Positions 23,119 to 37,360 of a DNA stretch of 47,687 bases are shown piece after piece (positions within the stretch are counted from its first letter, which is position 1; every line of letters begins with the position of its first letter). The stretch spans positions 1 through 47,687 of the forward strand of contig JAIMKV010000035.1 in the NCBI GenBank assembly GCA_020692205.1, given 5' to 3'. The notes below the pieces were generated by a model, which was given only the letters and a program-made list of their open reading frames with translations, did not search any database and was not told where the DNA came from. The translations under genes and the position numbers were made by a program. The DNA comes from Myxosarcina sp. GA_180221_E-2-1-MAG-40_15 (GTDB taxonomy: Bacteria; Cyanobacteriota; Cyanobacteriia; Cyanobacteriales; Xenococcaceae).

Positions 23119-23986
23119 ATGTCTACTACTAATGGTTGGTCACATAATTTTATTAGCACTAATGGAATCAGACTGCATTATGTTAGCCAAGGATCGGGAA
23201 AGCTGATGCTTATGCTGCATGGGTTTCCTGAGTTTTGGTATTCCTGGCGACATCAAATTACCGAATTTGCTCGGGATTACCATGTGGTTGCAGTCGATCT
23301 ACGCGGATATAACGATAGTGATAAACCCGAACAGTTGGAGGCTTATCACCTGTCTGAATTGGTTGCCGATGTTAAAGGGGTAATTACAGGTTTGGGCTAT
23401 GAAGACTGTATCTTAGTCGCTCATGATTGGGGAGGAGCGATCGCCTGGAATTTTGCTTATGCCTATCCCGAAATGGTAGAAAAATTAATTGTTTTGAATA
23501 TTCCTCATCCTGCTAAATTCGCCGCAGGATTACAAACTCCTCAGCAGCTATTAAAAAGCTGGTATATCTTTGCTTTTCAACTACCCTGGTTGCCAGAATT
23601 TTTGCTTCAGTTGAATGACTATCAGGCGATTAAAGCGGCTTTTTTGGGCATGGCAATCAATAAAGCCGCTTTATAGTGAAGCAGATTTAAACGCTTACAA
23701 AAACGCTGCTGCTAAACCTGGCGCACTCACTGCGATGATTAATTATTACCGTTGTAGTTTTCAGTCTTTATTTTCGAGCGAGCGCCAACAGTGGGAAGTT
23801 TTAAATGTTCCGACTCTCACTATTTGGGGCGAAGACGATACGGCACTAGGCAAAGAACTAACCTATGGCACAGCAGCCTATGTTAGAGATTGGCAAATAA
23901 AATATATTCCCAACTGTAGCCATTGGGTGCAGCAAGAACAACCTGTATTAGTCAACAACTATATACGAGAATTCCTGACAAGCTAA
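23119..23986 (+). pseudogene. Epoxide-hydrolase-like alpha/beta hydrolase, frameshifted
   Basis: Two frames together make a complete alpha/beta hydrolase of about 288 residues. The first (23119-23676) holds the oxyanion motif HGFPEFWYSWRHQI and the nucleophile Asp in VAHDWGGAIAW, then stops at 23674-23676. The second resumes at SEADLNAYKNAAAKPGALTA and carries the acid Asp in WGEDDTALG and the His in NCSHWVQQEQP. One extra base at about 23671-23674 (TTTAT) explains the break. An Asp nucleophile and the cap fit epoxide hydrolases or haloalkane-type enzymes. All catalytic residues survive, so the break is recent, or it is a sequencing error. The second frame has no good start of its own at the break. 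Confidence 0.8.
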
Positions 23987-33932: not shown

Positions 33933-34682
33933 TTAATCTTGATTTTGCTGAAATGCGGTTTCAACCTGATTGACTGAATAACAAAAGCGATCGCCTCGAG
34001 AAATTGATTTTCCATGAACTACAGGACGATTATGAGTATAGGCAGTGTGACGATAAACTAACAAAGGATGACCCAGTGGGACATCTAAATATTCACTAAG
34101 TTCTAGATTAGCGTTAGTACATTCAATAATTGCTTTGACCCGCTCAATTTTCCAATTATGAAGTTCTAAAATAGGAAAGGTCATGTTTTGCTTTAACTCT
34201 GACTCTAGCTGATAACCTATTTCTGGAAGAATATAAGTAATATCTACACACCCAGGTTCTTGATCTGTTAATAAGATTTTTTTTTGTAGATAAGCAGTAG
34301 GATTATCTAGAGGTAATTGCAAAATTGCCTGTACTTCTTTCGGTGGTGTAACAGGTTCAAAAGTTATATTTTTTAAGGACAGTTCGATTCCTTGATTGGC
34401 TAGATCGTCTTCTAGAAACGTTAACGGATTTGAAAGAGTATAAATTACTTTACGCTTTTGGGTAACAAACGCTCCTTTGCCTTGATGAGTGGCTACCAAC
34501 CCTTGCTGAACTAAGTTAGCGATCGCTCTTCTGATCGTAATTCGGCTGACTTGCCATTGTTCAATTAGTTTGCTTTCACTAGGTAATTTAGCCCCTGGTA
34601 AATAATCACCACTAATAATTTGCTGGTGTATCTGTTCGGAAATATTTAAATGAAGTGGTATTTGTTTGTACGATTTTGCCAA
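33933..34682 (-). CDS. GntR-family repressor, HutC/UTRA type
   Basis: 249 residues. Residues 1-75 are the GntR winged HTH (IHQQIISGDYLPGAKLPSES, VSRITIRRAIANLVQQGLV, HQGKGAFV). Residues 95-240 are a UTRA ligand domain of the HutC subfamily (LQKKILLTDQEPG, LLVYRHTAYTHNRPVVHGKS). These proteins bind a small molecule that releases them from an operator. It is divergent from a desaturase gene, and the 116-bp gap holds one perfect palindrome and one related site, so it very likely controls that gene and itself. The ligand cannot be told from sequence. Confidence 0.92.
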   Translation of the reverse strand: MAKSYKQIPLHLNISEQIHQQIISGDYLPGAKLPSESKLIEQWQVSRITIRRAIANLVQQGLVATHQGKGAFVTQKRKVIYTLSNPLTFLEDDLANQGIELSLKNITFEPVTPPKEVQAILQLPLDNPTAYLQKKILLTDQEPGCVDITYILPEIGYQLESELKQNMTFPILELHNWKIERVKAIIECTNANLELSEYLDVPLGHPLLVYRHTAYTHNRPVVHGKSISRGDRFCYSVNQVETAFQQNQD

Positions 34683-34726
34683 ATTTACTCAATTGATCAG
34701 ATAAGTTACTGCAAAATTACTGACCA

Positions 34727-34743
34727 AACTATTATAACAAGCT
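34727..34743. promoter_or_regulatory. Second, imperfect GntR-type site
   Basis: This site shares the ten bases TTATAACAAG with the perfect palindrome 39 bp further on; the left half is degenerate (ACTA for CTTG). It is nearer the GntR start and could serve in self-control. Confidence 0.5.
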
Positions 34744-34765
34744 GCTGTGATTGTGTTAATTTAAA

Positions 34766-34781
34766 ACTTGTTATAACAAGT
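34766..34781. promoter_or_regulatory. Perfect 16-bp palindrome, likely GntR operator
   Basis: ACTTGTTATAACAAGT is its own reverse complement. It ends 17 bp before the ATG of the desaturase gene, so a bound repressor would block initiation or transcription there. GntR/HutC regulators bind palindromes of about this length. Confidence 0.75.
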
Positions 34782-34798
34782 GAAGTCAAAAGCCAGTT

Positions 34799-35713
34799 AT
34801 GAATACTCAAGTTAATACCAGATCGGCATCTGGTTGTAAGCCAAAAATTTTCAAGGCATCAGAGTTAAAGACTCTGAATGCTCGTTCTAATCGGCGGGGA
34901 TTAATCCAGCTAGCAGGACATATCTGCGTGATGGTATGTAGTGGATATTTAGGAACAATAGCTGATAATTGGTTAATTAAGACACCAGTATTGATTATTT
35001 ATGGCTTCAGTTTTGCTGCCATGTTTGCACCCTTACATGAATGTTCCCATCGAACAGCTTTTGCTAACAATCGTCTCAACGATTTTGTGGCTTGGATAGC
35101 TGGACTCTTATCTTTTTACAACAGTGATTTTTATCGTCGCTATCACAAATGGCATCATCGCTATGCTCAAGTTGATGGCAAAGATCCCGAACTCAACGAT
35201 CCTAAACCAAGTAACTTTTGGGAGTATCTAATCGAGTTAAGCGGTTTTAACTGGTGGGTTGGTAAATTGATCACTCATTATCGTGTAGCTACAGGTAAGC
35301 TAGAAAGTTATTGCTATATTGGCGAAGATGCGCGAGAGGAAGTAATCAGATCGACTCGCCTGCAATTAGCTATATATGGTATGGCGATCGCTGTTTCTCT
35401 AATCTTTAAGCAGCCTTGGTTTTTCACAATGTGGTTATTGCCTTTAGCTGTGGGACAGCCAATTGTACGCTTTATTTTGTTAGCCGAACATACAGGATGC
35501 ACCAACAATGACAATCCTTTGACTAATACCCGCACGACTCTAACCTGGTTTCCCCTATTGGTATGGAACATTCCCTTTCATGCCGAACACCACCTTTATC
35601 CTTCTATTCCCTTTCATGCTTTACCCCAAGCACATCAACAATTAGAAAAACATTTTTCAGTAGTCGAAGACGGTTATTTGACGGTGCATCGAAATATTAT
35701 GGCATCTTTTTAA
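34799..35713 (+). CDS. Fatty-acid-desaturase-family membrane enzyme
   Basis: 304 residues with about four hydrophobic segments. The three His boxes of membrane di-iron desaturases are complete: HECSH (80-84), HKWHH (116-120) and AEHH (ending at 264-265), plus an extra His in LLAEHTG. Family members desaturate or hydroxylate acyl chains, sphingoid bases or carotenoid-type rings. The boxes are not those of the beta-carotene hydroxylase CrtR, and I cannot name the substrate. The gene is divergent from the GntR gene, starts 17 bp after the palindrome, and is followed by cruP after 102 bp on the same strand. Confidence 0.85.
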   Translation: MNTQVNTRSASGCKPKIFKASELKTLNARSNRRGLIQLAGHICVMVCSGYLGTIADNWLIKTPVLIIYGFSFAAMFAPLHECSHRTAFANNRLNDFVAWIAGLLSFYNSDFYRRYHKWHHRYAQVDGKDPELNDPKPSNFWEYLIELSGFNWWVGKLITHYRVATGKLESYCYIGEDAREEVIRSTRLQLAIYGMAIAVSLIFKQPWFFTMWLLPLAVGQPIVRFILLAEHTGCTNNDNPLTNTRTTLTWFPLLVWNIPFHAEHHLYPSIPFHALPQAHQQLEKHFSVVEDGYLTVHRNIMASF

Positions 35714-35815
35714 TTAGCTAACAGCTCAAAACTAATTAATAAAAAGCGTAGTCTATTGAATTAAAAACTGCTGTACGTTAGGCTGCATAGAAACTAAAGC
35801 AGTTTAATCACCACA

Positions 35816-37360
35816 ATGAATTTAACCACAGAAATACTTTCCCAACAGCCAGACAATGTCTTAGCAAAATTACGCCAAGCAGATCGATTGTGGTTAAATT
35901 TACGCTCAGGAAACATAGATACATCAGAAGTTGTTACCAGCAGTTCAGCAATAATTGGCGAATCCGTCACAGATATTGTGATCTGTGGCGGAACATTAGG
36001 CATACTGTTAGGTGCAGCACTACAGAAGCTTGGTTGGCAAGTTATGCTAATTGAAAGGGGAATTCTCCAGGGAAGAAAACAAGAATGGAATATTTCGCGT
36101 CAGGAGTTAAATACACTGCTCGAATTAGAGTTGTTGACCCCAGAAGAATTAGAAACAGCGATCGCTACTGAATATAATCCCGCCAGAGTCAGCTTTAAAG
36201 AGAAGGAAGAAGTCTGGGTACAAGATGTTTTAAACATTGGAGTCGATCCTGTTTATTTACTAGCTCAACTCAAACAAAAATTTCTTCAAGCCGGGGGAAC
36301 ACTATTAGAAAATACAGCGTTTAAATCGGCTACAGTTCATCCTAATGGAGTAGTCATACAAGCAGGAGAACAAACGATTCAAGCTCGCCTGTTAATCGAT
36401 GCTATGGGACACTTTTCACCGATTATCAAACAGGCAAGAAATGGGGTTAAACCTGAAGCAGTTTGCGTCGTAGTTGGTAGCTGCGCCCAAGGATTTCCTG
36501 AAAACCAGACAGGAGATTTAATTTATTCCTTCACGCCGATCATCAATAACTGTCAGTATTTTTGGGAAGCTTTTCCTGCTAAAGATGGTCGTACTACCTA
36601 TATGTTTAGTTATTTAGATGCCGACCCAGCAAGACCAAGCCTAGAATACTTTATGGATGAATATCTTAGGCTTATGCCAAAATATCAAAATATTAGCTTA
36701 GAACAGCTAAAATTTCAGCGTTTTTTATTTGGCTTTTTTCCTGCATACAAAGACAGTCCAATAAAATTACCTTTTAATCGCATTTTGCCTGTAGGTGACA
36801 GTGCCGGGGGACAATCTCCTGTAAGCTTTGGTGGCTTTGGCGCCATGATTCGTCATTTGAAACGTCTGACTAACGGGATCAACGAAGCTTTAATCGTAGA
36901 TCGCTTAAGCAATAAAGATTTAGTTCTACTACAGCCATATCAACCCAATATCTCTGTGACCTGGTTATTTCAGCAAACCATGAGCGTAGAGGTTGGTAAA
37001 CAGGTTAACCCTGAGCAAATTAATAATTTGATGAGCGGTGTTTTTGCCGTCATGAAGCGTTTGGGAGATGACGTACTTAAACCATTTTTACAGGACGTAA
37101 TTCAATTTGCACCTTTAACCAAAACTTTGCCTTTAGTTAATCCCAAATTAATCTTGCCTTTGCTACCTCAAATTGGCATCAACTCTTTAGTGAACTGGAG
37201 TTTTCACTATTTCAACTTGGCACTTTATAGTGGTTTGTATAGTGCAGCCAAACTAGTTCAACCAGCAATCAACAATCTCTCGCCGTCTCAGCAATATTAT
37301 TATCATCGTTGGCTGGATGCCTGGAAATATGGTTCAGGTAATGATTATCAACAAGATTAA
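35816..37360 (+). CDS. cruP: CruP, lycopene-cyclase-family flavoprotein
   Basis: 514 residues. The N-terminal FAD-binding fold reads VTDIVICGGTLGILLGAALQ (51-70) with the ribose-binding Glu80 in LIERG. The block QEWNISRQEL (89-98) and the later LPVGDSAGGQSPVSFGGFGA are the CruA/CruP signature. The length fits CruP; CruA is longer. CruA cyclises lycopene, while CruP, its paralogue in cyanobacteria and plants, is reported to limit carotenoid epoxides under high oxygen and shows weak or no cyclase activity. The gene lies behind a desaturase-family gene on the same strand, perhaps under the same GntR control. Confidence 0.85.
   Translation: MNLTTEILSQQPDNVLAKLRQADRLWLNLRSGNIDTSEVVTSSSAIIGESVTDIVICGGTLGILLGAALQKLGWQVMLIERGILQGRKQEWNISRQELNTLLELELLTPEELETAIATEYNPARVSFKEKEEVWVQDVLNIGVDPVYLLAQLKQKFLQAGGTLLENTAFKSATVHPNGVVIQAGEQTIQARLLIDAMGHFSPIIKQARNGVKPEAVCVVVGSCAQGFPENQTGDLIYSFTPIINNCQYFWEAFPAKDGRTTYMFSYLDADPARPSLEYFMDEYLRLMPKYQNISLEQLKFQRFLFGFFPAYKDSPIKLPFNRILPVGDSAGGQSPVSFGGFGAMIRHLKRLTNGINEALIVDRLSNKDLVLLQPYQPNISVTWLFQQTMSVEVGKQVNPEQINNLMSGVFAVMKRLGDDVLKPFLQDVIQFAPLTKTLPLVNPKLILPLLPQIGINSLVNWSFHYFNLALYSGLYSAAKLVQPAINNLSPSQQYYYHRWLDAWKYGSGNDYQQD

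Follow-up and report, generated by a model that had tools for sequence, protein, structure and literature searches.

The gntR-des Locus

In the present study, we analyzed a divergent gene pair and the short region between its members on a 47,687-nucleotide contig of Myxosarcina sp. GA_180221_E-2-1-MAG-40_15, a cyanobacterium of the family Xenococcaceae (GenBank assembly GCA_020692205.1, contig JAIMKV010000035.1, positions 1 to 47,687); this whole stretch is referred to as the window. The pair consists of gntR, which encodes a regulator of the GntR family, and des, which is predicted to encode a membrane di-iron enzyme, and des is followed by a CruP-like gene (Table 1). The gntR product gave 69 bits against the GntR domain and 66 bits against the UTRA domain of Pfam, both of which exceed the gathering cut-offs. 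The divergent genes are separated by 116 bp, and the operator O2, ACTTGTTATAACAAGT, ends 17 bp 5' of the des ATG. A second site, O1, has TTATAACAAG in common with O2 at 34732-34741, 39 bp away. The candidate -10 box of gntR overlaps O1, and autorepression is thus predicted; this promoter comes from a scan in which many sites arise by chance (14 found vs. 11.0 expected). A preliminary description of the window had reported the three genes, the palindrome, the second site, and the intergenic region at coordinates that were all right.

Table 1. Features of the gntR-des region and the adjoining CruP-like gene (positions in the window).
Feature	Position	Strand	Basis
gntR, UTRA (HutC-type) GntR regulator, 249 aa, TTG start	33933-34682	-	Pfam domains, orthologues
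Operator O1, AACTATTATAACAAGC, degenerate dyad	34727-34742	none	O2-like site, matrix score 5.7
Candidate gntR promoter, TTAACA-17-TATAAT with TG	34731-34759	-	11/12 consensus matches
Operator O2, ACTTGTTATAACAAGT, perfect dyad	34766-34781	none	Own reverse complement, conservation
des, FADS-like membrane di-iron enzyme, 304 aa, nine invariant His and Asn257	34799-35713	+	FA_desaturase, 133 bits
des-cruP gap, 102 bp	35714-35815	+	No terminator-like site detected
CruP-like gene, neighbor judged to be outside the conserved module	35816-37360	+	Lycopene_cycl, 32 bits (cut-off 23)

Conservation of the Operator

Comparisons were made in a family set of 27 genomes, the window's genome included, in an order-level set of 388 genomes, and in 87 des loci taken from the family set and a named genome collection after seven duplicate loci had been dropped. 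GntR adjoins des in 26 of the 87 loci and is divergent every time. The operator was found at all 26 of these loci, 15 of which are independent of the scoring matrix (trained on 12 of the sites later scored), vs. two of the 61 loci without GntR, both of these exceptions being among nine loci that hold little upstream sequence. Scores at the GntR-bearing loci were at least 18 in 25 cases and 15.3 in the other, which is a perfect variant dyad, and none of the 1740 base-shuffled control regions held an operator. The palindrome is conserved near orthologous gntR-des pairs, a condition that the preliminary description had set, and the putative operator is strictly coupled to gntR. The palindrome alone was rejected as evidence: palindromicity by itself is weak because the window contains three perfect 16-bp palindromes, which is near the chance level, and the significance of O2 lies in a conservation across loci that is beyond chance.

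Within the family set, 11 of the 27 genomes, the window's own included, carry GntR at an identity of at least 73%, and gntR is divergent to des in all 11; the orthologues in 10 of the 26 other genomes (73-85% identity) all adjoin des. Orthologues of des over most of its length occur in 14 of the 27 genomes, with a fragment in G018. Besides all 11 gntR-des loci, the operator occurs in G022, which is one of the two exceptions without GntR and where only 75 bp of contig precede des; it is absent at two family des genes without GntR (G015 and G023). In the window, as well as at nine of the 11 further family loci that carry the operator, an O1 recognizable at a score of at least 5 is spaced 38-39 bp from O2; at this threshold, O1 is unrecognizable in G010 and G006. 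The O1 of the window is weaker (5.7) than those of six sister genomes (18.3). Variant sites keep the dyad in some cases (TCTT..AAGA and GCTT..AAGC) and not in others (GCTT..AAGT and TCTT..AAGG).

The exact O2 word occurs once in the window's genome. Regarding sites with no more than one mismatch in genomes that have GntR or a des operator, 16 of the 17 among the matches listed lie at genes named in the present study, the exporter/dmm region of G010 included, and the seventeenth (contig C2 of G001) lies 27 bp 5' of a short dehydrogenase-like open reading frame (ORF). Three such sites, again among the matches listed, are in the GntR-less genomes G004, G005, and G016.

Several single loci are recorded here as observations. 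At L196, on a short contig, an operator-like site (21.6) precedes a des gene, and no GntR was found. At L145 in G065, a GntR fragment that has an in-frame stop and no operator is located ~12 kb from the des gene. Positions 1-500 of L111 (contig C149 of G018) hold an internal piece of des, 5' of which a stretch resembles, by eye, the start region of gntR, the rest being deleted; the search gave no gntR match at this locus. The divergent place of gntR is occupied by an XRE-cupin (PuuR-like) regulator at four loci (L156, L159, L215, and L217). A creatininase-family gene is divergent to des in six Pseudanabaena-type loci (L157, L160, L162, L165, L166, and L180) and is further from des in a seventh (L158). 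A search for GntR relatives on plasmids at E 1e-20 returned distant Priestia proteins only.

Operator and GntR at Methylated-Amine Genes

Copies of the operator were sought across the 27 family genomes and around candidate genes. In G019, a copy with one mismatch starts 40 bp before a GATase-GXGXG-Glu_synthase-glnT operon, which we take to be mgsABC-GmaS from its domain content and gene order. The same genome has a perfect copy that is flanked on one side by the gene of an RhtA-like exporter and on the other by three genes, the products of which are a protein of the DmmA family (77 bits, cut-off 60), a reductase, and an oxygenase of the HODM alpha-like type. In G010, one copy (one mismatch) is located 26 bp 5' of the mgsABC-GmaS operon and another (one mismatch) between an RhtA-like exporter gene and a single-strand run of five genes, which comprises an acyl-CoA-dehydrogenase-like gene, a 222-aa gene, dmmA, a reductase gene, and an oxygenase gene. 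The domain families under an O2-type operator in these two genomes are the same as those of the N-methylglutamate pathway (GmaS and MgsABC) and of dimethylamine monooxygenase, and some relatives therefore carry the candidate operator at operons for dimethylamine monooxygenase, for N-methylglutamate synthase, and for GmaS-related proteins. An alpha/beta hydrolase gene (abh) that usually accompanies des is on a separate contig in G014, where a copy of its own (one mismatch) precedes the matched part by ~90 bp, and the detached abh gene of G024 has a weak site.

In the order-level set, GntR matches at E 1e-40 or better were obtained in 26 of the 388 genomes: 17 beside des, seven ~2 kb from mgsC, one in G353 on a short contig with mgsC elsewhere, and one in G065, which is a fragment with a stop codon. 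Seven of the nine copies away from des are therefore at the N-methylglutamate synthase operon, in another family. The upstream regions of gntR and mgsA score above the threshold in six of the seven mgsC-linked cases, and G229 has variant sites only. In G091, a gene resembling those for N-methyl amino acid/sarcosine oxidases lies opposite gntR, and ~3 kb past mgsC there is an ammonium-transporter-like gene, which is preceded at 50 bp by a weak site (14.9), both assignments being below the NCBIfam cut-offs.

A 480-aa acyl-CoA-dehydrogenase-like gene was observed in two places: it is the first gene of the dmm operon in G010 (L286, 10201-11643), and it lies downstream of mgsC in G091 (L313, 13744-15186). 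A paralogous GntR (41-43%) was also observed in G024, G001, and G010 (L112, L113, and L114). The G010 copy adjoins genes for a BCCT-family transporter, a Rieske oxygenase, the best match of which is glycine betaine monooxygenase (below the cut-off), and an FAD-GcvT enzyme, and a perfect palindrome, ACTTGTAATTACAAGT, is located within 2-7 kb of the paralogue in all three genomes. This paralogue probably regulates glycine-betaine genes, the core sequence being shifted.

Partners of des

In most cases, des is the first gene of an operon. At 63 of the 87 loci, abh follows des in the same orientation at a distance of up to 3 kb, and at 31 of the 87 a TIGR03105 (GmaS) gene follows within 5 kb; ORF calls were mechanical, and these counts are lower bounds because many loci end at contig edges. 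One representative of each was compared with NCBIfam: the hydrolase gave 473 bits against PRK07581 (cut-off 332), and the glutamine-synthetase-like protein gave 698 bits against TIGR03105 (cut-off 470). All 13 other family genomes with des have abh and a TIGR03105 gene, the latter being of the mgs-operon type (52%) in G019 and G010; 12 of the 13 family genomes without a full des have neither, and G025 has both. In Leptolyngbya sp. BL0902, a strain described as genetically tractable (PMC11298460), des, the hydrolase gene, and glnT are adjacent, and that stretch gave no GntR match; Pleurocapsa sp. CCALA 161 (L147) is a laboratory cyanobacterium with GntR. In Roseibium, Roseateles, and Paraburkholderia, relatives of the hydrolase gene adjoin genes for an amidase and a cytosine permease, to which genes for urea transport are added in two cases.

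Among solved structures, the GmaS of Rhodovulum (7cql, 645 bits) is the nearest to the TIGR03105 protein. The solved entries are presumably the structures of the paper from which the pocket residues below were taken, and the residue numbers fit. Nine GmaS pocket residues, as given in that paper (PMC7948447), are kept in all 33 des-linked copies except for one gap at K30 (32/33), and include the Ala that replaces the ammonia-binding Asp of glutamine synthetase. Because these residues are conserved and 7cql is the closest solved structure, the operon partner of des is GmaS-like.

Among the 388 genomes, TIGR03105 was found in 57, mgsC in 19, and des in 59, and all 19 mgsC genomes have TIGR03105. 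The 57 TIGR03105 genomes include 33 with des and 19 with mgsC, two of which have both, and seven with neither (hypergeometric P 3e-7, a value that ignores shared ancestry). Each of the 26 GntR genomes holds des or mgsC, and only two hold both. This distribution suggests that des and mgsABC are alternative partners of GmaS. The avoidance is visible only within GmaS genomes; mutual exclusion of des and mgsC over the 388 genomes, which was also considered, was not seen (two shared vs. ~3 expected from 19 and 59). In a control set of 14 known genomes, Synechococcus elongatus alone had a TIGR03105 gene.

At eight Nostocales loci (L181, L182, L192, L194, L197, L203, L205, and L209), des occurs without the hydrolase or GmaS, and a gene for a fusion of an FA_hydroxylase-like domain and a short-chain dehydrogenase/reductase is located within ~2.5 kb downstream of it.

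The des Protein

The des protein, whose FA_desaturase match exceeds the Pfam cut-off, has the histidine boxes HECSH, HKWHH, and HAEHH. Nine His are invariant in 36 sequences and, with one Asn, agree with what a di-iron FADS-type enzyme should have. The confident predicted model (mean pLDDT, the predicted local distance difference test, 84) gave weak fold matches to AlkB (E 0.003) and stearoyl-CoA desaturase (E 0.8); the only two matches at E <0.001 were chains of the chloroplast FtsHi motor complex that carry no molecule name. The protein is below the curated cut-offs of the NCBIfam equivalogs DesA, DesB, CrtW, CrtR, and GntB. The best match was GntB, over residues 22-286, with 73 bits vs. a cut-off of 380; des is consequently not a GntB, although GntB, a membrane L-arginine hydroxylase, offers a precedent for an FADS-type enzyme that acts on a small amino acid. 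Regarding relatives in Proteobacteria (30-39%), those in Ruegeria and M382 are near betaine-type, amino-acid, or guanidino genes, that in Cupriavidus adjoins a PRK07581 hydrolase gene, that in Paroceanicella adjoins an abh-family gene, and that in Phyllobacterium has neighbors of other kinds.

CruP as a Neighbor

The gene downstream of des is presumably cruP, a name supported here by the Pfam match, its presence in every one of the 27 genomes of the family set, and a further CruP-like homologue of larger size (34-37% identity) in 25 of them; the Lycopene_cycl domain passed its cut-off, and the lycopene cyclase subfamily TIGR01790 gave 31 bits, which is under its cut-off of 210. CruP has a role in oxygen protection, and the preliminary description had joined GntR, the desaturase, and CruP into one candidate regulated lipid/carotenoid module. 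We did not find cruP following this desaturase elsewhere: it was near des at none of the 86 other loci, within stretches of up to about 6-7 kb on either side, some of which were ended by contig edges. A direct search also found none, and most family cruP genes have no des nearby.

The gene order is mgtE-rbp-gntR-des-cruP in the window and mgtE-rbp-cruP, without gntR-des between, in G021, which is the closest relative by cruP (identities of 88% for cruP, 92% for rbp, and 97% for mgtE over the part held). The other genomes have 26 cruP loci, and since G021 alone has the mgtE/rbp neighbors among the 15 of these that were compared, the difference may be read as an insertion in one line or a loss from the other. 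A terminator search found no terminator-like site in the des-cruP gap, and read-through from des to cruP is possible in the window's organism. The upstream regions of cruP in 15 of the 26 other family genomes gave no useful alignment, and the gain or loss of a cruP promoter was, therefore, not readable. The gntR-des-cruP trio is not a conserved unit, and we judge cruP to be an accidental neighbor of gntR-des.

Discussion

The gntR-des switch is real and conserved, and its biology is most likely that of methylated-amine nitrogen, not of lipids or carotenoids. We consider it likely, at a probability of roughly three in four, that GntR acts as a dimer to repress methylated-amine assimilation as well as its own gene and responds to a small molecule, that des hydroxylates a small nitrogen compound, and that cruP adjoins them by accident. 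A GntR dimer would, without an inducer, bind O2 and block the start of des, and would shut the gntR promoter from the weaker O1, which overlaps the -10 box there. GntR would be released by an inducer, which is probably a methylamine or a compound formed early in its metabolism. The des protein is probably an oxygenase of a methylated-amine pathway and perhaps replaces N-methylglutamate synthase. We favor a reaction in which des would oxidize the N-methyl group of gamma-glutamylmethylamide and the alpha/beta hydrolase would finish the conversion in place of N-methylglutamate synthase. More tentatively, des and the hydrolase may constitute an oxygen-dependent replacement of both N-methylglutamate synthase and dehydrogenase, in which the methyl group of gamma-glutamylmethylamide is hydroxylated to yield glutamine (or glutamate and ammonia) and formaldehyde, by which oxygenic phototrophs would gain methylamine nitrogen, with one GntR switch serving either route.

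The GntR of the window resembles TmoR of Ruegeria pomeroyi in its family and in its proposed link to methylated amines. TmoR is reported to repress tmm in trimethylamine use, to have a dimeric DNA-binding domain, to bind the promoter, to respond to dimethylamine (DMA) and trimethylamine N-oxide (TMAO), and to regulate only tmm within a pathway whose master regulator is the AraC-type TmaR (PMC13390433). The best solved relatives of the window's GntR are YvoA/NagR and DasR of the HutC subfamily (97 and 54 bits), which share the GntR and UTRA domains with it. Their effectors are amino-sugar phosphates, and the window's GntR does not reach the cut-off for any of the 25 NCBIfam families among the matches listed. 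In the literature consulted, the N-methylglutamate pathway belongs to heterotrophic bacteria, whereas the genes described here are cyanobacterial, GmaS is accompanied by a hydrolase and a membrane di-iron enzyme, and mgsC is usually absent. Our literature search, which covered open-license articles in PubMed Central, found no publication that deals with this regulator or with the operon in cyanobacteria.

The main rival to the hydroxylation of gamma-glutamylmethylamide places des and the hydrolase upstream of GmaS, where they would free methylamine from an N-methyl amide or amine for capture by GmaS. The operon order des-hydrolase-GmaS, the amidase, permease, and urea-transport genes beside relatives of the hydrolase, and the occurrence of the same operator in two genomes at dmm, which is upstream of GmaS in the known pathway, are all in its favor; however, GmaS genomes have mgsC or des and rarely both, which fits the handling of the GmaS product by des and the hydrolase. 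We regard this route as possible but doubtful. A lineage-specific capture is unlikely; it would have placed gntR-des upstream of cruP and, by read-through, put cruP partly under the control of the switch in this single organism. The adjoining rbp and cruP without the pair in G021 and with it in the window, as well as the gap free of a terminator-like site, are consistent with capture, whereas the unalignable cruP upstream regions and the unsettled direction (insertion here or loss in G021) speak less for it. It is quite improbable that GntR controls its divergent partner only, with des being an ordinary fatty-acid enzyme and the amine links accidental: the FA_desaturase match, the lack of GntR, hydrolase, and GmaS at most Nostocales des loci, and the missing operator at several detached partner genes would agree with this, but the operator also precedes mgs, dmm, and hydrolase genes away from des, and GntR copies are located at mgsABC in seven genomes. 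A single lipid/carotenoid module is the least probable explanation, since the shared strand of des and cruP, their 102-bp gap without a terminator-like site, and the membership of acyl and carotenoid enzymes among FADS-type proteins (with weak DesB, CrtW, and CrtR matches) are set against the absence of cruP near des at the 86 other loci despite its presence in all 27 family genomes, the adjoining rbp and cruP without gntR-des in G021, and operator copies that mark methylated-amine genes in some relatives. Thus, a ligand-type GntR, a conserved dyad operator, and a divergent di-iron membrane enzyme stand from the preliminary description, and its module does not.

Several results weigh against the assignment of the switch to methylated-amine assimilation. 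No GntR is seen at 61 of the 87 des loci, and 26 of the 59 des genomes are without GmaS, 22 of these being in families f8 and f33. The des genes of Nostocales form their own clade and mostly lack abh, GmaS, or GntR, so that not every des member need have the same job. The operator was not found at the detached abh genes of G021, G017, and G010 and is absent at four of the six dmm loci and, in GntR genomes, at every one of the six GmaS genes of the des type that are detached; a regulon comprising every hydrolase and GmaS gene was accordingly rejected. When two mismatches are allowed, the operator pattern is no commoner than a reversed-pattern control, which gives eight matches vs. three in the window's genome and exceeds the pattern in 18 of the 27 family genomes, and we regard the genome-wide search at this setting as uninformative. 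The profile P values also take no account of shared ancestry.

The window's own genome, which keeps gntR, both sites, and an intact des, adds to these points: no match to the hydrolase, GmaS, mgsC, or dmm oxygenase was found in its 131 contigs (99.99% complete), and the pathway is, therefore, incomplete there. Either the pathway was recently lost, des performs another step in this organism, or the assembly does not contain these genes. A decaying des was considered and is not supported, its terminal branch (0.117) being like those of its sisters. By eye, two overlapping ORFs at 23119-23986 of the window look like one alpha/beta hydrolase gene split by a frame shift.

If GntR and des indeed serve methylated-amine assimilation, many cyanobacteria would be predicted to be able to assimilate methylated amines as a nitrogen source, and the 16-bp operator would provide a handle for reading the regulon from genomes. 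A plausible yet unsupported link to carotenoid protection would be corrected, and a family of proteins annotated as "fatty acid desaturases" would be assigned to nitrogen metabolism.

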